Below are positions 6,527-32,630 of a stretch of DNA of 55,855 bases, piece after piece; positions within the stretch are counted from its first letter, which is position 1; each line of letters starts with the position of its first letter. This DNA comes from Desulfovibrio psychrotolerans (GTDB taxonomy: Bacteria; Desulfobacterota; Desulfovibrionia; Desulfovibrionales; Desulfovibrionaceae): assembly GCF_013340305.1 (NCBI RefSeq), contig NZ_BLVP01000003.1, positions 1 through 55,855 on the forward strand, written 5' to 3'. The translations under genes were made by a program, and so were the position numbers. Below the pieces are notes generated by a model. That model did not search any database, had not been told where the DNA came from, and saw only the letters and a program-made list of their open reading frames with translations.

Positions 6527-6560
6527 CAATGTCCTTTCGCCGTCTGACGATTAAGAAATC

Positions 6561-6676: not shown

Positions 6677-8539
6677 TTAACGCGCTATGCCGGTCAGAAA
6701 ATTCTCGTAATAACCAAGCCAGTCTTCCGCCGTTTCCACCGCCAGCACGCGGGTGTCATGGTCAAAGCGCACAACGGTTGCCTCCCTGCCGCCTGCACCG
6801 TCCTGCACAAGGCATACAAGATCATGCCCCCGTTCAAGCACGGCATTCTGCACACCGCTCCGTCCGGCATCACCATACCCGAACGCTATGCGCAGCACCC
6901 CACCCTCTCCCGTTTCCCCGTCAGTCTGCGTGGCTGGCCTTGTGTCAGGCCCCGCTGCTGCCTGATTTACCTGACTTGCCTTATTTACCTGATTTACCTG
7001 ATAAGACTCATCGCCCGCATCCCGCACGGCAGTCAATTCCGCCTGCGTACGCAGAAGCAGCTCATCAAACTCGGTATCATCATCCAAGCGGAACGGAATC
7101 AAAACGCCATCCACGTCCACCGCAAGGTCCTGCCGGCCTGTAACCCGCCCCAGCAACACCGCAAAGGTCGCAAGCATCACCGCAGCCACAGAAACGCCCC
7201 TGCCCTCCGCCAGCACCCCCAGACTTCTCCGCAGCTCACCCGGCAGCACCCTGCGCACACTCGCCACCGCACGCCGCTCCCGGGGCACATAGGCAAAATC
7301 AACAGGCAACGCCGGGTCTCCTGTGGTCATCTTCTCCAGAATGCGCACCACATCTTCCGCCATGCCTATTACGTTGGCCCGGCTGAAGAGGTCCGCGTAA
7401 TACTCCAGCGCAAAGCTTATGCGGTCGCCCACATCGCTGACAAAGATGGAAAGGTCCGTCTTGCTCACGGGCTTGCTGAACCGCAGCGATTCGAACAGGT
7501 GGTAATCACCAGTGCCGTACTCAAAATTCATATAGGAAAGAATTATTTCAGAAAGCAATGACCGCTCCGGGCACAGCGGCGGCTTCAGGTCCATGAGCAG
7601 ATCGTTCAGGATGTACGAACTATGCCGCAGAGCCTCGTTGCTCACCGCCTGATTCTCCTTGAGCAGCCTTCCCAGCGGCGTTCCGGCTCGCACACCAAGC
7701 CGCAGGGGCTGCAGCGATGCCAGCATGCCCGCCGTGTTAAGATACTCCTTCCTGTTGTCCACGGTAATGGCCAGCACCACGTCTTCGTTCCCGGTATAGG
7801 CATGCGCAAGCACTGCCCAGGCAGTCATGACCACATGGTAATTGGTCACCCCTTCCCGGCGTGCCAGCCCCTTTATGCCCGCCACAACCTCTGCGGGAAG
7901 CTCAAACTCATACGTCCCCCCGCGGAAGGTATGCACCGGCGGACGCGGAAAATCAGAAGGCAGGTCCAGCGTGGGCACGCCATCACTGAACACACCGTGC
8001 CAGTATTCCTTGTCTTCCCGGCTGGCATGGGTGAACTGATGCCATGCAAAATCCTTCATCTGCAGCCGCACGGGTTCCAGCACTTGCCCGTGATACAAGG
8101 CATACAGTTCCACATTAAACAACGATATGGTTCTGCCGTCCGCCAGCGCGTGGTGAATGTCATAATACAGCACATGCTGCGTTCCGTTCACCACCAGCAG
8201 CAGCACCCTGAACCCTCTCTCCCGTTTCAGGTCAAAAGGCCTGATGAAGGTTTCCTTGAGGGCGATGTCGGCAATATGCACCTCTTCCAGCGTAAACCCT
8301 TCAAAGGGATGGATAATCATGTTGGGGTGTTCTGCATCGAAATCGCAGAACGATGTGCGCAGCACCTCATGCCGCTCTATCAGGGTGGCGATGGATTGCT
8401 CCAGCCGCGCCTTGTCCACATCGGCGGGAAGCCGCAAAAACGCCGGAAGATTGTATCCGGTGTGGTCGCTCCCCAGCATATCCGCATACAGTATGGAAAG
8501 CTGTTCACGGCCCACAGGATACGTATCGCGGACAGGCGC
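6677..8539 (-). other. Megasynthase C-terminus: C domain plus truncated C fragment
   Basis: C5 (HHALADG) would use the T5 chain as donor and the Gln carrier of the next protein as acceptor. After it, about 190 residues resemble only the C-terminal half of a condensation domain (VSVAAVMLATFAVLLGRVTGRQDLAVD) with no HHxxxDG. They carry a repeat-rich insert (QVNQVNKASQVNQ, 9-12 bp DNA repeats near 6963-7005). This may be a vestige of a lost module or an inter-protein docking region. Confidence 0.6.
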
Positions 8540-11500
8540 AGGCGCAATGCCCTGCGGGGCGGCTGTCTCCTGTTGCATCCCCGCCAGCACGCGGTCCATA
8601 AAATCACCCAGACTGTCGCTTTCCAGCAGATCCACCACGCTGGTACTTACACCAAGGGCCTGACTGATGCGGTTTACCACGCGCGTTCCGGCAATGGAGT
8701 CGCCGCCCAGATCAAAAAAGTCGTCCCCCCGGCCCAGCGGCGCGTCATAGCCAAGGCAATCCCGGAATATTTCCAGAATTTCGGCCTCCAGCGCATCAAC
8801 AGACCTCGTCGTCCGCTCCGTCGGCGCATTTCGTGCGGTTCGTGCAGAACCTTCCCCACCCGGCTCAGGCGTGGCAGCCACGCCCCCCCCGGCCTGAGAG
8901 CCCTGCGTGCCAACAGGATACGGCACACCCGATGCCTGCGGCAGAACAGCCTGCCCCTTCATCTCCGCCGTCCTGAAGCGGGAAGCATCTTCGTCAGACA
9001 TACCCACCACAACCACATCGCCACCGTGGCGGAGAGCCCTGTTCAGCACATCCAGCGCCTGCTCCGGCATCAGGGGCGTGCCACCATGGGCAGCTCCCAT
9101 GCGCGCCGCCATGCCCACGCCCGACCACGTGTTCCAGCACAGAGAAAGGGCAGGTAGTCCCTGCCGGCGGCGGTACCGGGCAAAGGCGTTCAGAAAGGCG
9201 TTAGCCGCCGTATAATCCGTCTGCCCCGGCGCACCAACCAGCGATGTTCGTGAAGAGGCCAGCACAAAGAATTTGAGATCGTCCGCAAGCGTGGCCTCAT
9301 GCAGATTCCACGTTCCGGCCACCTTGGGCGCAAGCACAGCCTCATACTGCCCGCGCCGCTTGGAAAGAAGATACCCCTCTCCGGCAACCCCGGCAGCGTG
9401 TATCACCCCCTGCACGGGTCCCACCTCCCACCGTATCCGTCCCAGCGTTTCCTCCACCTGCGCGGCATCGGTCACATCGCAGCAATAGGCGGCAAAGGGA
9501 ACATCCCCTATGCCTTCCCGTCTGCGGTGCAGCAATACCACCTGCACGCCTGCTTCTGCGGTCAGCTGCGCCGCAAGGGTCATGGCCATGCCGCCCGGTG
9601 CGCCTGTAATCACCACGCAGCCTTCCGGTGCCACAGCAGTTGCCACAACCGTTGTCGGAAGCACGGAAGAAGCATTTTCGGCAACAGGCTCAAGCACCTG
9701 CACACGCACACGCCCGCTTCCGTCAACGACATACGCCCCTTCGATAAGGCCCAGCGTCTCCATAAACGCCTGAACAGAGGCCTCATTCACCTCATCCAGC
9801 TCCGCATACGCACAGGATAAAAGCGGCTCTTCCTGCCGCAGTGCCAGCAGGGTGCCCAGAACAAGCGCGTGTCCGGGCCCGGTTTCGGAATGCACCAGCG
9901 CCCCGCTGCCCACCGCCGTAATATGCAGGGGCTTGCGCAGCCCCGCACGGCAGATTTCCTGCAACAACGCGCAGAACGCCCATGCCCCGTCCCCGGCGGC
10001 AGGCAGGTATACCACATGGGTCACGCCCTCGCGCAGTATCCCCGCCGCCAATTCCCGCGCAGCGTCCGTCGCCGTGTTTTCCGAATCACCGCCGGTGCGC
10101 GTCTGCTCCGTCCACACGGGCAGTGCCCTGCAGAGGCGGGCAACCGGGGCCAGCACCTCATGCAGCGCGCGGTGCGGACCGTCTTCCGCGCCGCCTAACA
10201 GCAGCAGGCCATCGGCCATGGCAGATGCGCCAGCCTGTCCCGATTCCCCGGCCACAGGCAGCATCTCCGGCAGAGCGGCTTCCGCCCACTGCACACCATA
10301 CAGTTCCGGCTCCGCACGCCCCGCCCCCAAGGATACGAAGACCATATCCGTCAGTTGCAGCAGCACGCGGCCCGCCATGTCCGCCACAGTGCAGTCCGCC
10401 GTGATGGTCCCCGGCTGCCTGTCCGTAATCCGCACCCATGCATACACTTTGGCAGGCAGGGGCCTCAACAGGTGTGCCGCGCCGCAGCGTGCGGGAACAA
10501 ATCCCGCTGTCCCGTGCAGGGCAAGGCTGGCGGCAAGGTCCACCATGGCCGGATGCCATTTAAAGGTATGCAGGTCGTGCCGGTATTCGTCCGGCAAGAC
10601 AAGCAGTGCCAGCAGGCTGTCCCCGTCCGCAGAAACCCGCAGCTCCCTGCGGCAGTCCCAGCGTGCGCTCACGCTTACAAGCCCCTGCCCTTTCTGTCCG
10701 GCGACATTTTGCTGCCCGGAATGGTCACCCGGACCGCCTCCGGGCTCCAAAAGGAGCATGGAACTGCGCAGGGATTCGATGTCCAATTCGCTTGCCCCGA
10801 TCGGCCCGCGTTCCCCGTTCGCCTGCCCCATCCCCGTACTCCGCACTTCGGCACGCACGGCCACGCTCCATGCCCCCTGCACCGCATGATGCAGTTCCAT
10901 GGCAACAGCATCCCCGTCCCCGTTCAGCAACAGGGTAGCCTCGCTTCCCTCCGTATACGTTACGGGCTTGTGCCAGCGCAGGTTCTCCACGCGCAGCGGC
11001 ATCCTGCCCACCGCCATACCTATCAGGTCCAGCACACCCATGCCCGCCAGCGTGGGCACACCCCGCAACCGGTGCTCGGCCACGGGCCAAAAATCATCCC
11101 GGCCTATGGCAACGGAACAGGCGGCTCCTTCAGGGGTGCGCACAGGTGCGGAAACAAACCGGGCGGCCAACTTCGGCCACAACGCCGTGCGGCTGAACAC
11201 CGTGGCAGGCAGGTGCGCCCTGTGCAGCGTAACCCCTTGGGGCCAGAACAACCTGCTCCCCCGTAAAAACTCGTCCGCAGCACTCTCAGCCTCCTCGCGG
11301 GTAGCAAAGGCGGCTCCGGCAATCCCCGGTCCCGGCACCCGTGTGCAGGTCACAATCCGCGCGTCCCGGTCAAACAACTCAGGCTGCTCAAGCTGCTCAC
11401 GGAGCGACTGCGCAGAATCCGCCACCAGCACCGTCCGCACATCCAGATGATCCCTTCCCGCCACCAGCGTCCCGGCAATGGCGTGCAGGGGCAGGTCCGG

Positions 11501-14500
11501 ATAACGGGACAAGGCGTCCCGCATCCGGCGGCAGTACTCCCGCAGCGCCGCCTCATCATTGGCGGAAAGCGGCACGCAGTACCAGCCCCCGTTGCCGGAA
11601 GCCATGTCCGGCATCACGGACGCGGGAACATGCTCCCGCAGCATCACGTGCGTGTTGATGCCGCTCAGCCCGAAGGAACTCACGCCGCACACCCACGGCC
11701 GTCCGTCAGGCGGAAGCGATTCCAGCGTCCGCGCAACGCGCACGGGGGCGGCGTCAAAATTAATATGCGGATTGGGCGTTTCAAAATGCGGCTGGGGCGG
11801 AACCTGCCCCTTCTTCAGGCTCAGCACCGCCTTGGCAAGCCCCACCGCCCCTGCGGCGGCGTCCAGATGCCCCACATTCCCCTTCACCGAACCTATAAGC
11901 GCTTTGCGCCGCAGGTTCGCTCTTTCACGGGCAAAAGCCTTGCCCAATCCTTCCACCTCAACGGGGTCACCCAGAACAGTCGCCGTGCCGTGGGCCTCAA
12001 AAAAGCTCACATCCGCCAGAGAAACCCCTGCGTTACGGGCCGCAAGGGCAATCACCTCACCCTGCGCAGCCGGATTGGGCGCGGCCATGCTGGATGCCCG
12101 ACCATCCTGATTGACGGCGCTTCCCGCAATGACGGCGTGAATGGCATCGTTGTCCGCAAGTGCCCGGTCAAGGAGCTTAAGCACAAACACGGCACCGCCC
12201 TCACCCGCTCCCACGCCGTCCGCCTTTGCGTCAAAGGTCATGGTGCGGCCCGAGGAAGCCTCAATGGTAAATGCCCTGTCTCCCTTTACGGGAAGGTCTA
12301 TGGTGTGCACCCCGCCCACAAGGGCCACGCTGTTTTCGCCCGCACGCAGGCTCTGGCAGGCGTCGTGCAGGGCCTTCAGAACAGACGAACAGGCCGTGTC
12401 CACCATAGAGGCGGAACCGCTCCAGTTCTTGAGATAGCTCAACCGCGCCACACTATTGGAAGGCACATTCAGCAGATATATCTGCTCCGCCTGCTCAGGA
12501 AACGCCCGTGTCACCGCGTCCTGAAACAACCGGAAGGGGCTTGCGCCCACAAAGACGCCCACATTCCTGTTCTCCAGCGCCGCCCCGCCGTATCCGGCGT
12601 CATCCAGCGCCTGCAAGGCCACTTCCAGAAAAACGCGCTGCTTGGGGTCCAGCAGGCTCGCATCATTGGGCGACAGCCCGAACCGCCTGTGGTCGAATGA
12701 GGAAATATCAGAAAGGTACGCGGCGTCCCGCAGCCGGGAAGGGTCGTACGCAAATCCCACCGTCTCAAGTATCTGCCGCACCTCGCGCTGCCGCACGGCA
12801 GGCAGCGGAACATTCTTGTCCGCACCGCGCACAAGGTCTTCCCAGAAACGCTCCGTCTCTTCATAATCGCCCAGCCGCACGGCCATGCCTATGATGGCCA
12901 CCGGGACATTGGCGGCAGCCTGCGGTGCCGCGTCCGCCGCCACGCTGCGTGCCTGCCCGATATACTGCGCCTGCGCCCGGATGGTGCTTTCCGCAAAAAG
13001 CCCGCCCAAGGTGAACACGCCCTTCCACCGCTCGTCCAGCAACGCATGCAGCCGCACAAGCAGCAGCGAATTGCCGCCCGCCTCAAAGAATCCCGCATCG
13101 GCATCGCGCACGTCCGCTTCCGGAATAACCTCACGCCATATCTGCCGGATTTCCTCTTCCAGCGGCGTCAGCCCGTCTGTTGCCGCCCTTGGCTCAGCAA
13201 CCAGCGGCCTGCCTTCCGCCCGCTTCCGGTCAGCCTTGCCCGATGCGCTGAGCGGAATGGAATCCGCCTCAAAGAACCGCGCGGGCCACATATACTCCGG
13301 TAAATATTCCGAAAGCCCGCTGCGAATTTCCTTCAGGGAGGGCAACCCGCCGCCGCGGGGCACCAGAAACGCCTCCAGCGCGTCCTGCCCGCCCATGCGG
13401 CATACCCGCACCACCGCCTGCGAAACACCGGAACAACGCCCCAGCGCGGCCTCCACCTCGCCCAGTTCAATCCTGTGACCGCGAATCTTGACCTGATCGT
13501 CGTTCCTGCCAAGATATTCAATAGTGCCGTCAGCACGCCAGCGGCCAAGGTCGCCCGTGCGGTACATGCGGCTGCCGGACCGGAACGGGTCTTCAGAAAA
13601 ACTGGCCGCCGTTATGTCCGGCCTGTTCACATAGCCCCGGGCAACCTGCACCCCGCTTATATACAACTCACCCGTAACCCCCACGGGCACCATGCGCCGC
13701 CGGTCGTCCAGCACATACACCCGGGTGTTGCTGATGGGCCTGCCTATGGGCACGCCATGTTCCGGAACGTGCGCACAGGGATACCACGTCACGTCAATGG
13801 CCGCCTCCGTAGGGCCGTACAGGTTGTGCAGTTCCGCCCGCAGCATCCTGTTAAACCGCCCCGCAAGCTCGGCAGAAAGCGCCTCGCCGCTGGTAAACAC
13901 ATAGCGCAGCGTTGCCAGCCTGGCCGCCTCATCCGGGCGCGTTTCCAGATAGTCCAGAAACACCCTGAGCATGGAGGGAACAAAATGCACCACGGTCACA
14001 CGGCGCTCAAAGATGGCCCGCACCAGCGCGGCAGGGTCCTTTTCCCCTTCCGGCTCAAGCAGCGCAAGGCTGGCCCCGCACCACGACCACCAGAACAGTT
14101 CCCATACGGAAACATCAAAGGATACGGTCGTCTTCTGCAACACCACATCGCCCTCTCCTATGGGAAAGCGCGACTGCATCCACAGCAGGCGGTTGCAAAG
14201 GCTGCGGTGCTCTATCTGCACGCCCTTGGGCCTTCCGGTGGACCCGGAAGTAAAGATGACATAGGCCACAGCCCCCGGCGAAACAGGCCCCGCGTCCAGG
14301 AACATATATTCCTGTGAACCATGTTGCCGGAAAGCATGCTCCTGCCCGGACAGGTTCCCCATATCCGGTGCAATCACATGCTGCCCGCACCGGGCAAAAC
14401 GCTCCGCATGGCGGACATCGCTTATAACCGTGCAAATTCCCAGATCGTCAAAGATGGATTGCAGCCGCGATTCCGGCAGGTCCGCGGCAAGGGGAACATA

Positions 14501-17500
14501 GGTCGCGCCTATGCGCATCACCGCAAAAATGGCAAGCATCATCTCCGGTGAACGGTCAAAACACACGCAGGCATAATCGCCGCGCGAAAGTCCTTCGGAC
14601 TCCAATTGCGCAGCAAGGGCGGAAACCCGTGCAGAAAACGCCTCGTAGGTGCACGAAACCCCGTCCGCGTCCACAATGGCAGCAGCCTTGCCGTTTGCAC
14701 GCACCTGTTCCGCAAAGCAGCTGTCCGCATCGCGCTCAATGTCAAAGGCTTCATCCGTGTGGTTGAACGACTCCACAAGCGCCCGTTCCGCCTCCGCAAA
14801 CACGTCCAGCGTAGCCAGCGGGGTGCCGTCTCTGCGCAGCACCCCGTCCAGCAGCGTGATAAACCTATCCCGCATGCGGTTCAGGGTATCTCTGCTGAAC
14901 AGGTCGGTGCAGTATTCCAAGTGGACTTCAAAACGGTCCGGTTCCGTCTCCCTGAAATAGAAGCTCAGGTCAAACTTGCTTCTGTCATGCCGCAATGACA
15001 AGGGCTGCATATGCAGCGGGGCGTGCCCGTAGTTGGTGAACGTCTGATCTTCCAGTGCCACAAAGACATCAAACAGCGGATTCCGCGCAGGGTTGCGCCC
15101 CGGTTCCAGCGCCTCCACCACCTTTCCGAAGGGGTACGACTGCGTGGCAAGCGCGTTCTGGAAGTTGCCCTGCACCTCCGCCACAAGGCTGTCGAAGTCC
15201 TTGTCCGCATCCAGCCTCGTGCGTATGACCAGCGTGTTCACGAACAGGCCGATCATGTTCTGCACCTGTTCCAGTTCCCTGTTGGCTGTCGGACAACCTA
15301 CCACCAGATCGGTCTGCCCGGTATGGCGATACAGAAAGGTCTTTACCGCCGCAACCAACACGGAAAACAGCGTCACGCCCAGATGGCGGGCACGGCTCCT
15401 CAGCTCACGGCTGCGCTCCTCTCCAAGTTCAAAAATCAGCGCTCCCCCCGCAAAGCTCTGCATGGGCGGCCTCGGGAAATCCACAGGCAGCCGCAACCGT
15501 TCCGGCAGAGGAAGAAGGGCGGCTTTTATGCTCTCAATTCCCGCCGCATCCTGCCCAATCTCCCACTCCACGTAACTGGGGTAATCCAGTTCCTGCGGCT
15601 GCCATGCCGGTGCGGCGTTCCGCAGCACGGCATCATACGCCTGATTCAGTTCACGGATGAAAATTTCCGCCGACCACCCGTCAATGATGATGTGATGGAA
15701 GCAAAAGAACAGCACGCCCCCGGATTCTCCCTCACGGAACAAAACCACTCGTGCAAGCACGCTGCTTTGCCCGAACGGCATCTCCATAATGCTGTCAGGC
15801 ACGCTGTCCGTATAAGGTTCATCACGCACCTCCAGCCTCAGACTGCCGGCAGCCACAAGCCGCTGCTCGGGCCTGTCCGCATCCACCCGCAGCCGCAGAG
15901 CGTCATGACGCTCCTCAAGCATGGTCAGCGCCTGCTGCAACGCCTCCACATCCACAGGAGCCTGCACCCGCGCCGCAAAGGGAACCAGATGCACGCGGCT
16001 GTCTCCGTGCAGCCTTTGCAGGAACCATATGCGGGTCTGGCTTGCGGACAGCGGATACACCTCCCTGCGCGGAGCACGTTCAATCCTCACCGCCTTGGCA
16101 GATGCCTTACGCATCCGTGCCGCCAGCCTGCGCACACTGGAATGGACCAGAATATCCTCTATGGCCACATCCAGTTCCAGCCGCTTGGAAATCTGCGCCA
16201 TCACACGCATGGCCAGCAGGCTGTGCCCGCCAAGCTGAAAGAAGTCCACGTCCGCAGAAGGTACCCTGCACCCGAGAACAGACTCATAAATTTCCAGAAG
16301 AACGGCCTCCAGTTCGTCCGTTCCCTCTGCGGGGGCGGCTTCTGCACCTGCCGCACAGGCAACCCGTACTCCTTCAGGCTGCCCTTGTGACAATCCGTCT
16401 GGCTGGCCGTCTGGCTGACCGTCTGGCTGACCCGTAACGGCTGCACCCGCTTCCGACGCACCCCCTTCCACGCCCCATGCCGCGATGCCAGAATCGGTAC
16501 CAACGCCTCCGGCCACGTCCTCCAACTGGCGGCACGTCATATCCCGCCCGGATTTGTGTTCCTCACCCCTGTCCGCGCTCCGGGCCATATCCTGTTCAGA
16601 CGCCACAGCCCGCAACAACGCATGCAGCTTGTCGCGCAGGCCGCACACATACCTGCGGTTCAGGGCCGAAGGGTTGTACAGGAAGCGGAAGAGAAGCTTC
16701 TCGCCCGGAATGACAGATATACCCAAGGGATAGGGTATCTTCTCAAACCCGCTCACACTCCCTATCTCCAGCCCGCCCCCACCGGAGACCGCTTCTACGG
16801 GGTAATTCTCAAAGACCATCAGGTGATCCAGCAGGTCCTTGCCCATTTCCGCAAGGGGCAGGTAGCCGTGACGCATCTGCTGCAACCCCTGCTCCTTCAC
16901 GCTGTCCAGCAGTTCGGAAAACGCACTCTGATCAGTCCACCGCGCACGCAGGGGCAGGGTCTGGATGAACAGCCCCACGGCCCTGTCCATGCCTTCCAAT
17001 TCCGCCGGACGGCCGGAGGTGACAACCCCGTAGACAACATCCCGGCATCCGCCGTTCTCACCGCTGAGAACAATGGCCCACAACGCCTGAACCAACACGG
17101 ACAGCGTAACGCTGCGGTCGCTGGCCGCCCCCTGCAACGCCTTGCTGTCTCCGCCGTCCATTTCCAGCGTCAGTGTTCCCGGCTCGGCTGGGGTTCCCGG
17201 CTCGGCAGGGTCTGCTCCTGCCGCCAGTTCCGGGGCAGCCCCCCGCCCCGCCAGCCCGGTCATGGGCCGGAAGTCCTGCAGCAGCACACGCCAGTAGGCT
17301 CTGGCCGCATTTTCATCAAACCCGGCGCGCCAGCGCGTATACCCGGCAAGGGGCACCGGCTGCGGCAGCGGCTTTGCCGGTCTTCCGGAAAACTGGTTGT
17401 ACAGGCTGAACAGTTCCCGCAGCAGAATGCCTATGCACCAGCCGTCCATAAGCAGGTGATGAAAGCACCAGCTCATCGCAAGGCTGCCGCCGGTAAGGCT

Positions 17501-20500
17501 GAAAAACTGCGCCCGGATCAGCGGCCCCCTGCCCAGATCAAACCCGCGCCCCCTCTGCCCCGCCAGCAGCGACTCCATCTCGGCACGGGCATCCGCCTCC
17601 GGTAGGTGCGAGAGGTCATGGTATTCCGTGCCCGTTCTGGCACGATGCAGGACAACGCGGTAGAACTCGCCGTCATATGGCGCGGGAAAAAGGGACCGCA
17701 GGCTCTCGTGCCGGACAACCACCGCGCCCCACGCCCGCATGAGCACAAAAACGTCCGCCTCTCCCCGGAAGTGGAACGTTATCTGCTGCGTATACACTCC
17801 CTTGTCCGCCGTCAGCGACTGAAACAGCAAGGGTTCGTGGCAGACATCCGGTGGAATGATGCTCTCTATATCCTCCGCCGCGCAGCCGCAAACTTCCGGA
17901 ATCCGCACCCGAACCGCATCCGGCAGCGGCTCCCTGTAGGCGGGAAGCGTCTTCAGGGCTTGGGTCCATCCGTCCAGCAGGCCGTTCACCCACTCCGGCG
18001 GCAGCTTCTGCCCGCTGAAATAGGCCCCAAGATGCAGCGTGCCGCTCTCGTCAAAAAAGGCGCACAGGTCCAGCGGGCTGTCCGGTTCAAAATCCGGGTG
18101 CAGCAGTTCCGGCACGGTGCCGGGAACAGCCGCCGCAGCCAGCACTTCGGCATCGCCTCCGCCGCCTGCCGTGAGCGTGCCCAGATAGTTGAATCCTATC
18201 TGTGAAGCATACCCGAACCGCTCCGGGTCTTCCTGCTTCAGATATCCGTATGCGTTGCAGCCAAGGGGGGTAAAATGTTCCTTCAGCCATGGCCGTACAG
18301 TGCCGCCCGCCTTCTCGCAGGTCGGTGCCGGTTGCAGCGGCATGGGGCACACGGCGGTAAACCAGCCCACGCTCCGGCTCATGTCCAGCCCGGGAAGCAG
18401 GGCATCCCGCCCGTGACTTTCCAGTGTGAGGAATACGGCCTCCCGCTGTCCCTGCGTATACAGTGCCACGGCAAGGGCACACACCAGATCCGCCTGCGCA
18501 GACTGCGTGTATTCCGGGCTGAATCCCGCCACCTGCCGCACTGCCAGTCCGCGTTCCGCGGCAACATCCCTTCCCGGACGCATCGCCGTCAGCGCGCAGA
18601 CAGGCGTAGAGCACACCGACTGCCAGAACTCCCGGTCTTTGGCAGCGGGAAAAACGCCCTGCTCCACTAGCCCGGCAACGGCAGCAGCCCGTGTCGCCAC
18701 GCCATACGCCTCTTCCGTCCGCCCCCTGTTCAGGCAATAATCGAGCAGGTCACCGCGCAGCACATCCAGCGAAAAGGTATCCAGCACCAGATGGTGCCCC
18801 ACGAGCACGAGGAACCGCTTCCCTTCCTGCTCCGCCAGCCCCGCGCCGAGCGTTCTGCCCGCCTCCGGGTCAATCCCGGCGATAATCTCCCGCGCCATGT
18901 CACGGCACAGTGCCGTTTCCGTCTCCTGCGCACCAAACGTTCCTCGCAGCGGCACAATCCTCTGCGGCTGCTCCAAAACCACAGCGCCCTCAGGCGTAAA
19001 CGCCAGCCGCAACGCCTCATACCGCTCCGGCAGGGTTTCCAGCCACGCCACGGCACCGTGCGCCACACGGTCGCTCACGACCATGGGCAACATCATGTAA
19101 AAACGGCTCCAGTGACCGGGGTGTTCCCGCATAAGGGCGTGCTGCACGGGCAGCAGCGGAACCGCGTCCCCTGCCTGCACCCGGTTGTACACAGCCGCCT
19201 CCCCGCCGGACAGGCTTTCATCCTCCCTGATCACAAGCGCGCCCAGTTCCGCAAAAGACGGCGTCCGCATAAAATCGGGAGCGGTCAGCGTGCGGATAGC
19301 ATTCCTGTGCAGAATGCCCGTTATCTGAATAGCCTTAATGGAGTCGCCTCCGTCCCGGAAAAAGTCGCTCCCCTCGCCCGGTTCGGTACGCAGGATATCT
19401 CTCCATGCATCCGCCAGCACCTGTGCGGAACTCTTGCGCTCCAATCCTCCGCAGACTTCCGCCACCGTCCGTTTCAGTTCCTCCAAAAACCGCATGCCGT
19501 CCGGAATAAGCCCTTCGTCATATTCCAGAAACAATCCCGCGTCCGTTCCTGTTTCCAACGTAAAACTGCCGGAAAGCTTGCTCGCCCTAAGCTGCGGTTC
19601 CAGCCTGCGGAGCATAACCCCCTGCGCTTCCACATGCCCAGTCTCCGAGTGGGTCGCCAGAAATTCCGGCACAATCTCCGTATGGCTATACCGGCTGTGG
19701 GCAAGGGCTTTTCGCAGTTGCAGCGCGGTGTCCTTGATAACGGCAACCGTCTCCGCCGCCCCGCTGCGCCGCACCCGCAGAGGCACCGTGTTCACAAAGA
19801 ATCCAGCGGTCCTGAATTCTTCCTGCGTTTCGCGCATAGCCACCGGAACGCCTATCAGCACCTCCTCCCTGCCGAACTGCTCGCAGAGAAAACGGGCAAG
19901 CTGCGTAGCAAAGCAGGAAATGACGGTCACCCCCGTCTGCTGCGCCATACGTTCCAGACCTGCCGCAAACTCTTGCGTCAGGGCCGTTTTCACCATGGCT
20001 CCCTTGCGTTTTGAGCCGGGATTCACGGCAGGCGGCGGAGGATTGAGCACCTCTTCCCAGTACGCCCTGTCCGCAGCAAAATCGGCAGACCGGAAATACT
20101 CCTCCTGCCTGCGGCAATACGCAGCCTGCACGGCAAGGTGGCCGTTCTCCACAGCCTCGCCGCGCAAATACCGCAGGGCGTTATTCATCAAAATATCCAG
20201 CGTCTCTCCATCACCTGCAATGTGATGCAGCACCACAAGCATCCGGTACGAACCATCCGGCAACTTGGCCGCTTCCAGCCGCACGGGCGGTTCCGTCCGC
20301 AGGTCAAAAGACGTGTGGATAATGCCGTCAAAATACGCGTCCGCCGTCTCCGGGCTGGAAAATTCGCCCATGCGAAGCGCTATGCCCCCGGCATGGCTCT
20401 TCCGGAAGCAGGGGGAATCTATGGCGCCGGCCACGGTGCAGAGCAGCAGTTCCTGCCCGTTCACCGCCTGCCGGAACAACTCCACAAACGTTCCGGCCTT

Positions 20501-23500
20501 CTCGCCCCGCACCTCCAGCAAAAAGGGCATGTTGTAATCAATGGACCGGTCATTGGCCTGCTGGTAGGCCCATACATGAAACTGGTTCCGGCTCAGGGGA
20601 ACGGTATCGCCCGAAACATCTTCCTGCTTCGGCCGGCTCCTGCGCAGCAGATCTTCCACCTCAAACAGGCTGTCGCACTTCACAAACTCCCGGAACACCA
20701 CATCCACGGCATACGCCTTGCGCAGTTCGCGCAGCAGCGTCATGGCCTTCAGGCTGTTGCCGCCCTGATCGAAGAAATTCCTCTGCGGGTCATACGCCGC
20801 ACCCAGCACCCGCCCGCATATCTCCAGCAGCACAGGATCAACAGGCTGCCGAGCCACATCCCCGTCAGACGGCGCATTCACCAGCCGTTTCAGGGCATTG
20901 CGGTCTATCTTGCCGGTCACGGTCACGGGCATGGCGTCCAGCACATGCCAGCGGGAAGGGATCATGTATGCGGGCAGATTGTCTTTGCTCCAGCCGATGA
21001 CCTCCTCAAGCCCCGCCCCGTCGCGCAGAACCAGAAACCCGGCCAGCATGGTCTGCCCGGACGCGTCTTCGGCGGCTACGGCAAACGCTTGGCGCACGCT
21101 CCCGCAGCTTTCGAGCAGAAACGCCACTTCGCCCAGCTCCACCCTGTTGCCACGAATCTTCACCTGATCATCGCCCCTGCCCACCAGAACAATCTCGCCC
21201 GCCTCCGACCACACGGCCATATCACCTGTGGCATAGACCCTCTGGTTTCGCTGGTCTCTCTGGCCCTTCTGGACGGGCACTCCGCACAGAGGCGGCAGCT
21301 CGCAAAACCGCAACTGCGTCAGCTCAGTGTTCCCGTGATAGCCAAGGGCCACGCTGGCACCGCCTATCCACAGTTCCCCTGCCATTCCGGCGGGAAGCGG
21401 CTGCCTTTGGGCATTCAGAATATAGGCCGTTCCGTTGGGGATGGGCCGCCCTATGCTTATGGGCAGCACGTCATCCGGCGCAACCCGCTTCATGGAGGCG
21501 CACACGCAGGTCTCCGTAGGACCGTAGGCGTTAACATATTCCAGCCTGCCCGCGTAATGCAGGGCATCTTCCGCCACGGGCGGCTCACCTGCCGTAATCA
21601 GCACCCGCAGACCGGGAAATTCTTCCTTGTCGAACACATGCAGGTATGAAGGGGGAAAGGTCGTCACCGTTACGCCGTTCTCCGCCATATACCGGTTCAG
21701 CGTCCACGGTTCATTACGCAGCCTGTCGCTCACAGGATACAGACACGCCCCGGCGTACAGAGCCATGAACATCTCGGAAAGGGACGCATCAAAGCTGGGC
21801 GAGGCAAACTGCAGCACACGGTCATCCCCGCCTATGCCAAAGAACTCTATCTGCCCCTGTATCATGTTCACAAAGCCGCCGTGCGGCACAAGAACGCCCT
21901 TGGGCCTGCCCGTGGAACCTGAGGTATAAATGAGATACGCCCCATCTCCTGCTGCGGGAACCGGGCCTTCTTCAACCATGCTGTGAAGAGGAGCCTGCCT
22001 GTACCCGGTATCGTCCGGGTCCATGGTCAGAACCGCCTTGGCATCGCTGATGATGTATTCAATGCGCTCTGCGGGCGATGTGGGATCCACTGGCAGATAC
22101 ACGGCTCCGCACCGCATTATGCCCAGTGCAATTTCCGGCAGGGTAATAACTCTCCGTGCCAGCACGGCCACAATATCTCCGGGCTTCACCCCCTGCGCAG
22201 CAAGCCATGCCGCGCACTTCCGGGCGTTATCACGCACCTCGGCATAGGTCAGCACTGCGCCGTGTTCATCCCGCACAGCGGAATGCTGCGCAAAAAGCAA
22301 TGCCCTCTCTTCAAACAGAGAGGGCATGGACCCCACCGCAAACTCCCGCCGCACTCCCTGCTGCCACAGAAGAAGCTCTTCTTTTTCCACATCAAGCAGA
22401 TACTCCAGATCCGGCAGATCCACACCGGACGCCATCTGGTGCGTCAGCAGTTCTATACGCCTGACATACCGCTCCACATCCTGCTCACTGAAGTGGTTGC
22501 GGCTGCTGCGCACGGTCAGGGAGCACTCCCCGGATGCAGGATCATACAGCACAAGCGCGCCGAACAGAATGGGCTCCTGCTCGCTGTGCCACTGCTCCAC
22601 CGCACGAATGCTGAAATCCGCGTTCCCTTTGGGCGCGCCGGGCAGGTAGTTGACGAAGGTGTCCGCCACATAGGTCAGGTTCTTATGCGTCAGGTTGCGC
22701 ATAGCCTGTTGGTAGGGCGTGCGTATATGGCGGAAAAAACGGGCGTTCTGCCCGCCTATGTCCGCCGCGAGTGAGGCAAAAGAGTCATGCGCGCCCACAT
22801 CCACAAACACGGGCGGGGTGGCTATCTGCGCCCCCAGCCGCCTGCCGTGAGCCTTCCGTTCCCCAAAGGCTATGGGCGTCTGTATGGCAATGCCCTTCTC
22901 CCCGCACATGAAAGCGGCAACAAGGGCATGCAGTGCGGTAAAATAAACAGCCGGACCAACACCGTATCCGGCGAACAGGTCCGCAAGTTTTGAGGAAGCC
23001 TCTCCTGAAAGGGGATATTTCCTGTACCGTGTGTTGCCCAGCACATCCACACAGCCGGGGCGGGCACGAAAGATTCTCTTCTCAGGCATCCGCTCCAGAT
23101 GCTCTTCCCAAAAAGCAATATCCTTGGCGTACCGCGCCGATGCACAGTGCTCCCTGTCCTGCAGATACAGGTCGTCACACGGGCATGTCCCGTCCAGACC
23201 GGGGTCTTTGCCCTGCACCAGCGCGCTGTAAATCTCGGTTATGAACGATACGTGGAAGAATATCCCCAGCCCGTCGAGCACCAGATGGGAGCACTTGCAC
23301 AGAAAAACGCACCGCTCCTCTCCCGTGCGCAAAACGGCATAGCGCACCGGCTGCTCATCAACAGACTGTTCCAAAAAGACAGCAGTAAACTCGCGGGCTG
23401 CCCCTTCAGGGTCTCCGGCCTGACGAAAATCCAGAGAAACAAGGTCTACATGCGCCCCATTCCGCACCCGGAGGTACGGTCCATGCTCATCCTCACGCAA

Positions 23501-23764: not shown

Positions 23765-23947
23765 GGTCCATGGATTTATTTGGGGGCTGTACTAAGCCTC
23801 GTCTCTGGAGTATCTGAACGAAGATGAACCGCACAGACTGTGTGATGCCTGCATCCGGGACTCCGGCAAACGGCCTGCGGACATCAGTACCATCACGGTC
23901 CATTTTCTCTGCGCAGCAACGGATATGGTACATTGGGGGCATGCAAT

Positions 23948-25087
23948 ATGACTGATGAGACAAACGGCTGGGAATCACTCGACTGGAAAAAGGAACTGGC
24001 CCGCAACATAATTGGCGTGGACCAGCTTGCCGGATACGCCGCGTTCTCTGCGGAAGAACTGTCCAAACTCAGGGAAGTCGAACAGGTCCATCCCGTCAAT
24101 ATTCCCCGGTATTACCTCAGCCTTATCAATGCAGACGATCCGCGTGATCCCATCCGCAAGATGTGCTTTCCCAGCGCGGAAGAACTGATTGTCGCCGGTT
24201 CCATGGGAGAAACCACGGCAGACCCCTACGGGGACGACAAGCACGATAAGGGCAACGGCGTACTGCACAAATACGACTACACCGCCCTTGTGGTGGCAAC
24301 GGAATGCTGCGCCATGCACTGCCGCCACTGCTTCCGCAGAAGAATCGTTGGGCGACCCGGAAACCAGTTGCTGAAAGACTTCTCCGGGGCGGCGCAGTAC
24401 ATTGCGGAACATCCGGAGATAAACAACGTCATCCTCTCCGGCGGCGACCCCCTGCTGCTTTCCACCCCCATCCTGCAAAAAATGCTCTCCAGACTGGCGG
24501 AAATTGACCATCTGGATTTCGTCCGCATAGGTTCACGCATCCCGGTCACCTTTCCCATCCGCCTGTTCGACAACGAACTCATGGATGTCCTTTCCGCCTT
24601 CAACGAAAAAAAGCCCCTCTACATCGCCACGCATTTCAACCATGTGCGGGAAATAACCCCCACATCGACAGAAGCGGTCAAACGCCTGCGGCAATGCGGT
24701 GCCATCATCAACAATCAGGCTGTCCTGCTCAGGGACGTCAACGATACGCCGGAAGCACTCGTCTCACTCATGAACAGGCTTCTGGGCATCGGCATAAACC
24801 CTTATTATCTCTATCAGTGCATGCCCGTTTCCCGGGTGCGCCACCACTTCCAGATACCGCTCAGGCGGGGGATAGAAATCGTGGATACAGCACGCGCAAA
24901 GCTCAACGGCTACGCAACGCGCTTCAAGTACATCCTCGGTCACGATATCGGAAAACTGGAAATATGCGGCATGTCAGACAACAACATCGTGCTCAAGCAA
25001 ATTCACGCCCGTTCCGGACACGGCGAACAGGCTTCGCGCATCATCCTGCTGCCGCTGGATGATACCGCAGGCTGGGTAACGCTGTAG
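23948..25087 (+). CDS. KamA-family radical SAM 2,3-aminomutase
   Basis: A 379-residue protein from ATG 23948, which has a G-run about 8 bases upstream; an in-frame TTG at 23933 is less likely. The radical SAM cluster motif CAMHCRHC is at residues 121-128, followed by FRRR as in lysine 2,3-aminomutase relatives. A GG-DP motif (SGGDPLLLS) and a C-terminal GKLEI segment that could hold the PLP lysine are present. Family members shift an amino group from C2 to C3 of lysine, glutamate or arginine, or act on EF-P (EpmB). The substrate cannot be read from the sequence. Its position, divergent from a synthetase with two unloaded modules and followed by a type II thioesterase, suggests that it makes a beta-amino acid for the pathway, but a housekeeping role is not excluded. 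Confidence 0.82.
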   Translation: MTDETNGWESLDWKKELARNIIGVDQLAGYAAFSAEELSKLREVEQVHPVNIPRYYLSLINADDPRDPIRKMCFPSAEELIVAGSMGETTADPYGDDKHDKGNGVLHKYDYTALVVATECCAMHCRHCFRRRIVGRPGNQLLKDFSGAAQYIAEHPEINNVILSGGDPLLLSTPILQKMLSRLAEIDHLDFVRIGSRIPVTFPIRLFDNELMDVLSAFNEKKPLYIATHFNHVREITPTSTEAVKRLRQCGAIINNQAVLLRDVNDTPEALVSLMNRLLGIGINPYYLYQCMPVSRVRHHFQIPLRRGIEIVDTARAKLNGYATRFKYILGHDIGKLEICGMSDNNIVLKQIHARSGHGEQASRIILLPLDDTAGWVTL

Positions 25088-25136: not shown

Positions 25137-25925
25137 ATGACCATGACGAACGGAACCACCACCCTCTTCTGCATACCCCACGCGGGAGGCAACGCAGCCT
25201 TCTACACGCCGTTCGGCCGGTTTTTTCCGCAATCCGTCTCCTTCCGCCCTCTGGAGCTCCCGGGCAGGGGGCGCAGACACAGGGAACCGCTCCAGTCCTG
25301 TCTGCACGCCATACGCCGCGATCTCTTCAACAGCATTCTGCCCGTTGCGGAACACGCCCCCTACGCCCTGTTCGGACACAGTATGGGGGCGCTGCTTGCC
25401 TTCCTCTTCACGCAGGAGGCGCGGGAACAGTCAATTCCCCTGCCTGCTGCACTCTTCCTTTCCGGCTGCGCAACCCCCGGCAGCCCGGAACACACACCGC
25501 CCGCCCCCGTGGCTTCCCTTTCTCCCGCAATGCTGTGGCAGCACGTTCTCACCCTGGGCGGCGTGCCGGAATGCGTTGCCGCGTCCGAAGAATTCTGCCG
25601 CTACATGGAACCCATCCTCTACGCAGACTTCACCGCTCTGGAGCGGTGGCAGCCCGTATTCGCAGCCCCTGTTCCCGTTCCCATCACCGTTTTTCTGGGA
25701 GACTGCGACATCATCACGGAGCAGGCGGCACGGGAATGGAGCCGGCAAACCTCCGGCGCGTTCTCCCTGCGCACCTTCCCCGGCAACCATTTCTACCTGC
25801 AGGAACATTGGGCAGAGCTTGCGGCGCACATCACGCGCACGCTGCATCCCGCGCAGCGGCACGCGGAACGTCTGCCGGAACGTCTGCCGGAAAATTTGCC
25901 GGAACATCTGTCGGAAAATACGTAG
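25137..25925 (+). CDS. Type II thioesterase of the NRPS/PKS cluster
   Basis: A 262-residue GrsT-like alpha/beta hydrolase. It starts with FCIPHAGGNAAFY, has the nucleophile elbow GHSMG at residues 80-84 (Ser82), an Asp in FLGDCD and the catalytic His in GNHFYL. Such enzymes remove wrong or stalled acyl groups from carrier domains. That would be useful in a system whose carriers are loaded in trans. It lies 49 bases behind the aminomutase gene, probably in the same operon. No strong ribosome-binding site precedes either ATG (25137 or 25143). The C-terminus is an odd tail of RLPE-type tetrapeptide repeats encoded by 12-bp DNA repeats. Confidence 0.9.
   Translation: MTMTNGTTTLFCIPHAGGNAAFYTPFGRFFPQSVSFRPLELPGRGRRHREPLQSCLHAIRRDLFNSILPVAEHAPYALFGHSMGALLAFLFTQEAREQSIPLPAALFLSGCATPGSPEHTPPAPVASLSPAMLWQHVLTLGGVPECVAASEEFCRYMEPILYADFTALERWQPVFAAPVPVPITVFLGDCDIITEQAAREWSRQTSGAFSLRTFPGNHFYLQEHWAELAAHITRTLHPAQRHAERLPERLPENLPEHLSENT
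25860..25922 (+). repeat. In-frame 12-bp tandem repeat ending the thioesterase gene
   Basis: About four imperfect copies of CGGAACGTCTGC encode ERLPERLPENLPEHLSENT at the C-terminus. The repeat adds a tail beyond the normal thioesterase fold. Confidence 0.7.
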
Positions 25926-27288: not shown

Positions 27289-28398
27289 CTACCAGGCCAG
27301 TTCCAGCAGGGACCGGATATTGTCGTGCGAAGGACGCCGGGGGTTGCCCGCCGTGCAGATATCCTCCAGCACGTTACCGGACATCACGTCCAGATGATCG
27401 CGGAAGATGCGCTCCTCAATCTTCAGAGCGCCAATACGCGCAGGAATGCCCATAGCCTCGTTCATGTCATGTATGGCCTGAATCAGGCTCGCGGTCCCCT
27501 CTTCCACCGTGGCTGCGGGCAGAGAAACCATCTCGGCTATCTCGCGGTACTTCACACCCACGTCAAAGCTGTTGAAGCGGATAACATACGGCAGCACCAC
27601 CGCGTTCGCCAGTCCGTGGGGCACATGGAACAGGCCGCCCAGACTATGCGCAATGCTGTGGGTTATGCCCAGCCCGCTGTTGTTAAAGGCCATACCCGCC
27701 ATGCAGGAAGCCAGCAGCATCATCTCGCGCGCCTCCATGTCGTCCCCGCAGCGGTAGGCCCGCAGCAGGTAGGTGAACACGTAGCGTATGGCATATTCCG
27801 CATAGATGGATGTAAAGGCATTTGCCCCGCGCGAGGTATAGGCCTCAATGGCGTGGGTAAGCACGTCCATGCCCGTAGCAGCCGTCACCGAGGGCGGCAG
27901 CGTGCGGGTAAACCGCGCATCCAGAATGGCTATATCCGGTATGAGCAGTTCGTCATTGAGGGGAATCTTCACCTCATTGACCTTGTCCGTAACCACGGAA
28001 ATAGCCGTAACCTCAGACCCGGTGCCGCTGGTGGTGGGAATGGCGACAAGCAGGGGCTTGGGCTTGCCCCCGCTTGCCTTATGGGCAAAGAACATGATGG
28101 CCTTGGCGGCGTCAATGGCCGAACCACCGCCTATGGCAATCACCACATCCGCCTGATCCTTGAGAAAAAGCAACGTCCCTTTGGTAACGGTTTCCAAAGA
28201 CGGGTCAGGTTCCACGCCGTCAAAGGTGCTGTGCCCTATGCCGCTGCGGTCAAGGTGGCTCTTTATGCGGTCCGCAAAGCCCACCTTCACCATGAACGGG
28301 TCGGTCACGATAAACGCCTGCTTTGCGGACAGATGCTCCAGAGTCTCAAGGGCATCCTTTCCGTAGCAGATTTTCGTTTTTCCGTAGAACTGTGTCAC
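27289..28398 (-). CDS. cutO: Iron-dependent alcohol dehydrogenase (CutO/PduQ type)
   Basis: A 369-residue group III iron-containing dehydrogenase. It has GGGSAIDAAKA for NAD binding and metal ligands in the D-H-H-H pattern (TGMDVLTHAIEAY, HSIAHSLGG, FHVPHGLAN). It reduces acetaldehyde to ethanol with NADH and so regenerates NAD+ for the aldehyde dehydrogenase in the same compartment. The start is GTG 28398 after GGAGG; no upstream ATG fits. The gene sits between hairpin-bearing gaps, which suggests separate control of message levels. Confidence 0.93.
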   Translation of the reverse strand: MTQFYGKTKICYGKDALETLEHLSAKQAFIVTDPFMVKVGFADRIKSHLDRSGIGHSTFDGVEPDPSLETVTKGTLLFLKDQADVVIAIGGGSAIDAAKAIMFFAHKASGGKPKPLLVAIPTTSGTGSEVTAISVVTDKVNEVKIPLNDELLIPDIAILDARFTRTLPPSVTAATGMDVLTHAIEAYTSRGANAFTSIYAEYAIRYVFTYLLRAYRCGDDMEAREMMLLASCMAGMAFNNSGLGITHSIAHSLGGLFHVPHGLANAVVLPYVIRFNSFDVGVKYREIAEMVSLPAATVEEGTASLIQAIHDMNEAMGIPARIGALKIEERIFRDHLDVMSGNVLEDICTAGNPRRPSHDNIRSLLELAW

Positions 28399-28500
28399 CC
28401 TAGAAACCTCCGGGCATTGGAATGAAAAATGTTCTCGCAGCCTCGCCGTTTCCGCGCACAGGCGGCAGCGTAACCGCTGCGGATGCGGGCCGTTCGTCCG

Positions 28501-28559
28501 GGAGGCGGCAGGCTGGTTTATGGCACGGCCCTTTCCACACCGTGCCCCAGCCTGCCTCC
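28501..28559 (-). other. Large intercistronic hairpin
   Basis: GGAGG-CGGCAGGCTGG pairs with CCAGCCTGCCTCC, and inside it GGCACGG pairs with CCGTGCC, giving a long two-segment stem in the 216-base gap between a BMC-H gene and the alcohol dehydrogenase gene. No U-run follows. Confidence 0.55.
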
Positions 28560-28614
28560 GGAACGCGCAAACCGGCAGGCGAAAAAGCCCCCCGTCCCGC
28601 GCGTCAGATACACG

Positions 28615-28896
28615 CTACTTTTCAGAGCGCTTCGGCAGAATAAGCTCCACTTCGCTGTGGGGACGGGGAATAACGTGCACGCTCACCAGTTCGCCCACGC
28701 GGTCTGCGGCTGCGGCACCGGCATCGGTGGCGGCCTTCACCGCGCCCACATCGCCACGTACCATCACGGTCACCAGACCGCCGCCCACCTGTTCGCGGCC
28801 GATCAGTTCCACATTCGCGGCCTTCACCATGGCATCCGCAGCTTCAACGGCGCCGACAAGTCCCTTGGTTTCAATCATGCCCAGTGCGTTCATCAT
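28615..28896 (-). CDS. BMC-H hexameric shell protein
   Basis: A 93-residue canonical single-domain Pfam00936-type protein ([55 protein letters not shown]). It would form the main hexagonal facet tiles. It is nearly identical to the protein encoded at 32716-33000, so the two arose by duplication. GGAG lies 7 bases before ATG 28896. Confidence 0.95.
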
Positions 28897-28931
28897 TGTA
28901 TTCTCCTTTCAAACGCCCCTTGCGTGGTCTC

Positions 28932-29336
28932 TCAAATGTTGTCCCTGATGACCTTCACAGCCTCGCAGCTGACGGCCTTCAACTCTTCCGGGTCGTGGAT
29001 GCCGAACTCATTCTTCAGAATGGCGGCCACGCCGAGCACCAGCCCTTCAAGATCGGTATGCCCCGCCGCCTCGGCCGTGCAGGCTGCCACCGCTCCTGCG
29101 GCGCATGCCGCGCAGGTGCATCCGGGCGGGCACGTGTAACCGGGCGGGCAATCGCCGTGGGCGGGTGCATACGCACCGGCACCGGGCCGGGGACCGTACT
29201 CCACGGCAATGCCGCGGCGGGAAAGCTCGTCACGGGCTCCCGCAGTCAGAATCACCGACCCGTCCGCGTACAGTTTGCCGTCTGCCTTGCAGATAAAGGA
29301 GTCCAGATTGTCCGCTCCCACAAGTTTCTTCTTCAT
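28932..29336 (-). CDS. Cys-rich microcompartment-associated protein, unknown
   Basis: A 134-residue protein from ATG 29336 (GAGGTG 6 bases upstream; a GTG eight codons earlier is worse placed). The N-terminus (KLVGADNLDSFICKADGKLY, then VILTAGARDELSRRGIAVEYG) resembles the short conserved segment at the ends of EutQ/PduM-type proteins. The middle is unusual: six Cys in CPPGYTCPPGCTCAACAAGAVAAC (spacing 5-3-1-2-7), a possible metal or Fe-S site. A helical C-terminus follows. It lies between two shell genes and is probably a lumen protein. I do not recognise a defined function. Confidence 0.75.
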   Translation of the reverse strand: MKKKLVGADNLDSFICKADGKLYADGSVILTAGARDELSRRGIAVEYGPRPGAGAYAPAHGDCPPGYTCPPGCTCAACAAGAVAACTAEAAGHTDLEGLVLGVAAILKNEFGIHDPEELKAVSCEAVKVIRDNI

Positions 29337-29378
29337 GTTCACCTCACACCGCTTGTTCACAGCCTGTTGAAAATATGT

Positions 29379-29975
29379 TCAGCGCCCGGTCAGCGCCGCC
29401 ACCACCGAGGCATCGGGCCCGGGAAGAATGACCACATCCACAAGGTTTGCCCCCAGAGACTCTCTGGCGGCCTCTGCAGCTTCCCGGACAGAGGCAATGT
29501 CTCCGCCAAGGATAAAATATGATTTCCCGTTAATGCCCTGCCCTGTCACCAGCCGCAGAATACGCACGGCAGAACGCTTCACCGCACTGTCCGCTGCCGC
29601 CACCCCGGAAGAGACGTTCCTGCATTCCACCACGCCCACGGCCTCTCCCTCATGCGCGGCAGCCCCTTTGCGCAGCGCCTCCATAACCTGCGGCGACACG
29701 TTGGAAAGCACAAAACTTCCGGCAAGGGGACGGTCCGTTTCTCTGGCCGCCTGCACGGCGGTTTCCACGGCTTCGCGGCTGCCGGAGACGTAGATCATGT
29801 ACCTGCCGGAGCAAATGGTCCCCGCCCGCACCATATCCACGTGCGCCGCCTTCATCATCCGGTCCGCCAGATCCGCACCGGCGGCAATGCCCCTGCTTTC
29901 CACTATCCCCAGCGTGTCCAACGTACGGGGCGCATCGGGCATATTCGGCATAGCAGGAATATTCGGCGTATTCAC
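29379..29975 (-). CDS. PduT-like tandem-BMC shell protein with Fe-S loop
   Basis: A 198-residue protein with two BMC domains (about 20-105 and 107-195), forming pseudohexameric trimers. The first domain carries a Cys in the pore loop (AGTICSGRY, Cys55), aligned with the TICPGK loop of PduT, which binds a 4Fe-4S cluster on the three-fold axis. It may therefore carry electrons across the shell or accept a cluster. The start is GTG 29975 after GAGGAG, overlapping the tail of the vertex-protein gene. Confidence 0.88.
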   Translation of the reverse strand: MNTPNIPAMPNMPDAPRTLDTLGIVESRGIAAGADLADRMMKAAHVDMVRAGTICSGRYMIYVSGSREAVETAVQAARETDRPLAGSFVLSNVSPQVMEALRKGAAAHEGEAVGVVECRNVSSGVAAADSAVKRSAVRILRLVTGQGINGKSYFILGGDIASVREAAEAARESLGANLVDVVILPGPDASVVAALTGR

Positions 29976-29978
29976 GGG

Positions 29979-30263: not shown

Positions 30264-30276
30264 ACGCCCCTCGCCT

Positions 30277-30870: not shown

Positions 30871-30914
30871 GGGGTTCTCCTATGCGTCCTGTACATCTGT
30901 CGGAAAAATCTCAA

Positions 30915-32409: not shown

Positions 32410-32630
32410 AACGGCTCCGCGTTCGTTACACTGCATACCTGTCACATTTCCGTTCATCGCTTGCGGGAGCTGCGTACCATACCCGGACAAGCTCTGGTCG
32501 CCGCCTTGCCACGACCACGCCGCGTCCACCCCCAGTTCCAGACCATCTGCCGTATGCCCTTGCCCGGCACAGGGAAACAGCTTCCTTTCCCCCGGCACAG
32601 GCGAACAACCTGATCATGCCCATGTGTGCA

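Follow-up and report, generated by a model that had tools for sequence, protein, structure and literature searches.

Two consecutive nonribosomal peptide synthetase modules without adenylation domains in an assembly line of Desulfovibrio psychrotolerans and its relatives

1. Introduction

Nonribosomal peptide synthetase (NRPS) modules that lack an adenylation (A) domain of their own occur in several described assembly lines, and the passages of the literature drawn on here show two ways in which their carrier (T) domains are supplied. In the mannopeptimycin line, arranged C-A-T-E-C-A-T-C-T-E (C, condensation; E, epimerization), the second A domain serves both of the T domains that follow it (PMC8949500), and in the yersiniabactin proteins HMWP2/HMWP1 one A domain supplies three carriers, of which two are reached in cis (PMC9547227; also PMC7539972). 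For the A-less modules of the WS9326A, syringomycin and viomycin lines, the supply is described as coming in trans from distinct A or A-T proteins (PMC7539972; PMC8949500). Here, we describe a line encoded in a 55,855-nucleotide stretch of Desulfovibrio psychrotolerans (assembly GCF_013340305.1, contig NZ_BLVP01000003.1, positions 1 to 55,855; hereafter the window), in which two modules in a row, C2-T2-E and C3-T3, are without A domains. A sequence-only reading of the window had pointed out these modules and reasoned that they need either a stand-alone A domain acting in trans or the iterative use of another A domain.

2. Two Adjacent Modules without Adenylation Domains

The first protein of the line, P0001 (6677-23713, minus strand), is 5,678 amino acids long, and its 5,678-codon frame is too long to be accidental: base shuffling, repeated 200 times, gave open runs of at most 311 codons. 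Pfam and NCBIfam matches, motif positions and domain BLAST give the order C1-A1-T1-C2-T2-E-C3-T3-C4-A2-T4-KS-DH-KR-T5-C5-Cx (KS, ketosynthase; DH, dehydratase; KR, ketoreductase; Cx, a C-terminal region), and P0002, downstream on the same strand (3107-6529), adds A3(MT)-T6-TE (MT, methyltransferase; TE, thioesterase). The whole line thus has six carriers, one polyketide synthase (PKS) module without an acyltransferase (AT) and three A domains; by Pfam and NCBIfam, P0001 contains two of these and P0002 the third, into which a methyltransferase is inserted.

Within residues 1-2838 of P0001, Pfam finds five Condensation-family stretches (E included), three PP-binding stretches and a single AMP-binding stretch. 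The match to A1 ends at residue 793 and its C-terminal part at residue 935, and the next A domain, A2, begins at about residue 3000. What lies between is C2 (19484-20611; HHIAGDG at 20207-20227), T2 (19274-19471; DFFRDGGDS at 19340-19366, continuing as GGDSIKAIQ), E (17924-19231; HHLVLD at 18779-18796, ESHGRD, SRSVGWF at 18359-18379, NYLG), C3 (16559-17911; HHLLMDG at 17441-17461) and T3 (16109-16336; DFFQLGGHS at 16220-16246, continuing as GGHSL), all on the minus strand, so that the span 16080-20624 given earlier does run, in outer coordinates, from C2 to T3. With domain borders set by us, 4 residues separate C2 from T2 and 74 residues of low complexity separate C3 from T3 (linker at 16337-16558), whereas an A domain needs about 500.

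A hidden Markov model (HMM) built from the A domains of the same family scores -3.7 bits from C2 to E and -2.9 bits from C3 to C4 in the window. Over 33 such stretches its sole clear match is the C3 stretch of the divergent line G205 (E 2.5e-12, 37.1 bits), the runner-up being G219 (E 0.21, 1.1 bits), and a hidden A remnant in the linkers of modules 2 and 3 is ruled out on this basis. The C3-T3 linker is mostly of low confidence in an AlphaFold2 model, with a predicted local distance difference test (pLDDT) score of about 21-36 for residues 473-530, which lie inside the linker, although the model was built from five sequences and its mean is only 57.4; Foldseek ranks condensation-domain NRPS proteins highest for that model, led by tyrocidine and SrfA-C. 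Both C2-T2-E and C3-T3 are thus A-less NRPS modules, with intact C and T domains and neither an A domain nor a remnant of one between them. The sequence-only reading was therefore right on each of its structural points, namely two consecutive modules without A domains, intact C and T motifs in both, and an E domain that keeps its second His and its SRSVGWF motif.

3. Conservation among Relatives

Twenty of the 348 genomes searched, all from the order to which the window belongs, have matches to the line; two of these (G018 and G211) carry ordinary NRPS lines with weak matches only, leaving 18 genomes with this line, namely the window's own, 16 with orthologs and the divergent G205. Domains in the relatives were assigned by BLAST with the domains of the window, not by Pfam, and the line is only partial in G084 and in G097, the latter not having been fetched. 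It can be read through both modules in 16 cases, and 15 of them (the window, G004, G007, G082, G096, G098, G111, G118, G119, G138, G210, G213, G219, G302 and G306) have no A domain in either module. These 15 lines fall into two families, share 44-70% identity with the window across C2, T2, E, C3 and T3, and have C3-T3 gaps of 36-75 residues. A phylum-wide search of 395 genomes added a single genome, G388, matched over one C domain.

The comparison of homologous clusters for an A domain at this place, which the sequence-only reading had proposed, thus turned up one exception, module 3 of G205. Module 2 of G205 has no A domain, and its C3 is followed by an A domain that is interrupted by the end of the contig. 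We take G205 to be a sister line because its other contigs carry the later domains (C4-A2-T4-KS-DH-KR, C5 and A3(MT)-T6-TE).

4. Signs That the A-less Modules Are Functional

Motif conservation was read from an alignment of 17 rows, comprising the 15 A-less lines, G205 and OWN2, a second NRPS of the window's genome. The HHxxxD of C2 is kept in all 17, the Gly after its Asp being Ala in five, as is the GGDS of T2; the HHxxxD of E and the HHxxxDG of C3 are each kept in 16, OWN2 being the exception; and GGHS or GGNS is present in every one of the 15 rows that reach T3. The ratio of nonsynonymous to synonymous substitution rates (dN/dS) was calculated for five pairs of lines, of which three are close (G096/G138, G096/G118 and G118/G098), one (G082/G084) covers C1-C2 only and one (G007/G004) is distant. 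In the close pairs, T2, E, C3 and T3 have dN/dS values of 0.03-0.17 (that of T3 in G118/G098 being incalculable), within the range of the A-bearing modules. Judged by these comparisons, the layout is widely shared and under selection.

It could be argued that the A domains were recently deleted and that what is left is a decaying line, and the A domain in module 3 of G205 does imply either one loss in the other branch or one gain in G205. That reading is highly improbable, since 15 lines of two families are A-less with intact motifs and no A remnant. A deletion accompanied by decayed C or T motifs had been named in advance as the finding that would overturn the proposal; the motifs are kept and dN/dS is low, and a recent deletion is ruled out by these observations together with the conservation of the A-less state.

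A tree of C domains from five lines and OWN2, to which 34 reference C domains were added, each labelled solely by its preceding domain, points the same way (plasmid NRPSs served solely as references in this tree and in that of the A domains). The E rows of the line join E domains with support of 100/100, C3 stands beside nine reference C domains that follow an E domain (97/85), and C2, C4 and C5 are placed with 16 of the 20 references that follow a T domain. The line therefore has both halves of an E and DCL pair, an E among E domains and a C3 among C domains that act after E. Because the motifs are kept, dN/dS is low and C3 groups with the after-E domains, T2 is probably loaded and epimerised, and a C3 of apparently D-accepting type after an E domain is hard to explain unless T2 carries an epimerised residue.

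The opposite possibility is that one or both modules never load, the chain being passed over T2 or T3 or the modules being skipped. The lack of a cognate A domain would fit this, and skipped domains are described for another line in the relevant part of PMC8949500, but the kept active sites of C2, E and C3, the position of C3 with after-E domains and the purifying selection in the close pairs make it rather unlikely.

5. The Probable Source of the Residues on T2 and T3

If the modules are loaded, the enzyme that loads them must either accompany the line or belong to it. TIGR01733, the amino-acid A-domain model, was run over 15 of the 18 genomes with the line (G084, G097 and G119 being left out), using a threshold of 200 bits that we chose after seeing the scores; the curated cut-off of 317.4 bits is not reached by the interrupted A3. 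In nine of these 15 genomes (G210, G118, G098, G082, G219, G111, G213, G007 and G004, among which G098 is a single contig and G213 is 86% complete) nothing beyond A1, A2 and A3 exceeds 200 bits. No MbtH match was found in any of the 14 genomes searched for it, the window's and 13 relatives. The family A-domain HMM, run over open reading frames of at least 250 amino acids in the fetched clusters, finds NRPS proteins only, and the four AMP-binding proteins of the window's genome that were scanned match CoA-ligase families best, one of them above the cut-off. Across the cluster reading frames, the genomes covered by TIGR01733 and these four proteins, no A or A-T protein was found that accompanies the line without being part of it, and a dedicated stand-alone A domain for T2 and T3 is, on these genome searches, unlikely. 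The search for free-standing A domains and MbtH-like proteins proposed earlier thus yielded, in the window's genome, one further amino-acid A domain, that of OWN2, and no MbtH. Since no stand-alone A domain was found to accompany the line, its own A domains are the likely source, so that of the two solutions offered by the sequence-only reading the iterative one is favoured and the stand-alone one is not.

A stand-alone enzyme encoded elsewhere could still charge T2 and T3 in trans if it were of a kind that the amino-acid model scores low, such as an acyl-CoA-synthetase-like protein. AMP-binding proteins that are not part of an NRPS do exist in the window's genome, and several relatives share an acyl-CoA-synthetase-like protein (about 560-620 amino acids, 186-198 bits); against the absence, in nine genomes, of any A domain above 200 bits outside the line, the NRPS-only yield of the cluster scan, the CoA-ligase matches and the lack of MbtH, we consider this quite unlikely. 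Two further candidates were not favoured. OWN2 as a general trans-loader was rejected because no close ortholog was found among the 348 genomes (two candidates scored per genome), and the type II thioesterase beside the line was set aside as an aminoacyl shuttle, its GHSMG serine motif being present.

Among the A domains of the line itself, A1 (20879-22351, minus strand) lies upstream of T2 and T3 on the same chain, and A2 and A3 are also possible chargers. Substrate codes were read at positions placed by GrsA anchors; position 278 was read by eye for A2 and A3, and the final Lys was assumed. The A1 code, DASTIAAVC, is identical in all 16 A1 rows and differs by one residue in OWN2. We take it to be of aromatic type, and no other code in the line looks aromatic; no paper was found for the A1 code strings. 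A2 (13184-14746) reads DVWHFSLID, of serine type. The code of A3, read by eye as DAQDLAVVD, is one residue from DAQDLGVVDK, which is stated in the relevant passage of PMC12283262 to recognise Glu and Gln.

OWN2 is an intact frame of 2,264 codons (6964-13758 of locus L045, G000:C8; at most 337 codons stayed open when the bases were shuffled 200 times) arranged A-C-T-E-C, with no T domain between A and C, and its only T domain precedes E as T2 does. In a tree with nine A1 and eight A2 rows its A domain falls in the A1 clade with support of 100/99. The genes around OWN2 are homologous (45-64% identity) to genes that flank the main line in relatives, and from these surroundings the cluster looks split in the window's genome.

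We infer that A1, and not A2 or A3, is the charger of T2 and T3, and we infer the product order likewise. A1 is favoured because its code is constant in 16 of 16 rows, because it lies directly upstream and because in OWN2 an A domain of its clade is followed by C-T-E-C. That A1 charges T1, T2 and T3 in cis, with both A-less modules working as elongation modules, seems to us somewhat better than an even bet; loading of T2 by A1 is on its own quite likely, and loading of T3 by A1 is rather likely, if less so than that of T2. Under this scheme A1 would charge T1 (20639-20866; GGNS) and also reach T2 and T3, which belong to the same polypeptide. C2 would form the bond between residue 1 and the second residue, on T2, E would convert residue 2 to the D form and the DCL-type C3 would transfer the chain onto residue 3 at T3, whereupon C4 (14729-16096) would deliver it to the serine module of A2, then to the AT-less PKS module and then to the A3(MT) module.

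Several observations weigh against this scheme. The A domain in module 3 of G205 groups with neither A1 nor A2 (it is partial, at 217 residues, and on a long branch); another amino acid may therefore once have stood at position 3, and A1 may not be what supplies that residue. The wider branch around C3 takes in all 14 after-E references and also 4 of the 20 after-T references, so the DCL typing of C3 is not absolute. T2 has a dN/dS of 0.53 in G007/G004, the highest of the line in that distant pair. OWN2 may be degenerate, since the active site of its final C domain and the first His of its E domain are gone. P0001 is split into two frames in G213 and G219, outside modules 2 and 3. Finally, the other six of the 15 genomes are not as clean as the nine listed above: the window's genome adds OWN2, G096, G138 and G306 have further A domains elsewhere, and the line is in pieces in G205 and in G302, which also has another NRPS.

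The serine-type A2 is the other candidate within P0001, as charger of T3 and possibly of T2, or with T2 left to A1 and T3 taken by A2. It is on the same chain just past C4, and its reach to T3 would span one C domain, like that from A1-T1 to T2. We nevertheless regard its involvement as unlikely, as the shared A domain lies upstream in the mannopeptimycin and yersiniabactin precedents and A2 is in a clade separate from the module-3 A domain of G205. If instead A1 does charge T1 to T3, the line would be a compact natural system in which to study carrier choice across module borders, with built-in comparisons in G205, whose module 3 has its own A domain, and in the A-C-T-E-C paralog OWN2 of the same genome. 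It would also warn against reading A-less modules as broken, since a count of A domains would omit two residues of the product.

6. A Co-inherited KamA-Family Enzyme

F0 (23933-25087, plus strand), a radical S-adenosylmethionine (SAM) enzyme beside the line, aligns with lysine 2,3-aminomutase (PDB 2a5h) over residues 16-329 (E 1.8e-65). It scores 260.9 bits against TIGR00238, whose curated cut-off is 199.2, which places it in the KamA family. Two Asp columns, which we take to be the holders of the lysine side chain in lysine 2,3-aminomutase, are replaced in F0: unlike that enzyme, all 14 aligned F0 orthologs have Met and Gly in these columns, whereas the KamA protein of G205 keeps both Asp. 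The G213 ortholog has Cys in place of one Arg next to the cluster motif. F0 and its orthologs (67-75% identity, at least 589.9 bits; next match 300.5 bits) occur in 16 of the 348 genomes, all of them among the 17 line-bearing genomes other than G205; G097, which is 63% complete, has none listed.

Because both lysine-holding Asp residues are replaced, F0 probably makes a beta-amino acid different from beta-lysine. E domains act by inverting the carbon that adjoins the thioester, and in a beta-amino acid this carbon is a stereocentre only if it bears an alpha substituent. The residue on T2 should therefore be an alpha-amino acid. One could imagine that A1 serves its three carriers with isomers, F0 making the beta form of the aromatic substrate of A1 and C2, E and C3 serving as gates that let the alpha form through wherever it has to be epimerised next; we hold this to be a speculative and doubtful extension. 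If it were true, F0 would be a radical SAM aminomutase that is linked to this line and acts on an aromatic or neutral amino acid.

7. Other Features of the Window

The line begins with C1 (22364-23713, minus strand; motif and domain BLAST), which has SHxxxDG instead of HHxxxDG, Ser standing for the first His, and forms a long branch of its own in the C-domain tree. Downstream of A2, on the same strand, come T4 (12944-13171), KS without an AT (11654-12931) followed by a RhiE/CurL-like linker, DH-like and KR domains (9044-11176), T5 (8579-8851) and C5 with Cx (6680-8566). The PKS module as a whole (9044-12931) has KS, DH-like, KR, T and RhiE/CurL-type linker regions and no AT match; as a KS module without an AT it is probably of trans-AT type. 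Cx (6680-7231), which resembles half of a C domain, is present in all 12 lines that keep P0001 and P0002 as two proteins but was not found in G306, where the two are fused; it is a possible docking region between them. P0002 (3107-6529) holds A3 with its methyltransferase insertion, T6 and TE, and the interruption of A3 is seen in all 13 lines whose P0002 was read.

The genes that recur beside the line encode F0, a type II thioesterase (F3, 25137-25925, plus strand; GHSMG), a phosphopantetheinyl transferase-like protein (F9, assigned by eye), an exporter, a substrate-binding protein, and DUF697 and SPFH proteins. Further along, 27289-40388 encodes a glycyl radical enzyme, a radical SAM activase-like protein, a bacterial microcompartment (BMC) shell protein and aldehyde and alcohol dehydrogenases, and looks like a glycyl-radical microcompartment locus. 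At the left end of the window are an AbiEi-type antitoxin or regulator (135-914, minus strand) and a Fic protein (2492-3079, plus strand).

8. Comparison with Known Systems

We did not meet this line in searches of the open-access literature on NRPSs of Desulfovibrio or the Desulfovibrionaceae. Its A-less C-T modules resemble those of the WS9326A, syringomycin and viomycin lines, as far as the cited passages describe them, in standing within a line that works, but differ in that no A or A-T protein outside this line was found to accompany it. With yersiniabactin it would share the use of a single A domain for three carriers; the yersiniabactin line has heterocyclization domains, cysteine, an E domain nested in the A domain and a third carrier reached in trans, whereas here the C domains are ordinary and all three carriers are on one chain. 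It also resembles mannopeptimycin, where likewise an A-less C-T-E module occurs, the T domain of which is supplied by the A domain upstream. In the arrangement given for mannopeptimycin, one A-less module follows the shared A domain; here two consecutive ones follow it, only the first of them with E, and an A-bearing module and a PKS module come next. Two consecutive A-less modules with E in the first do not appear among the shared-A cases in the relevant passages of PMC8949500, PMC9547227 and PMC7539972. Overall, the logic of a shared A domain is itself known, and what is new here is its conserved two-in-a-row form, together with a KamA-family enzyme that lacks both lysine-binding Asp residues.

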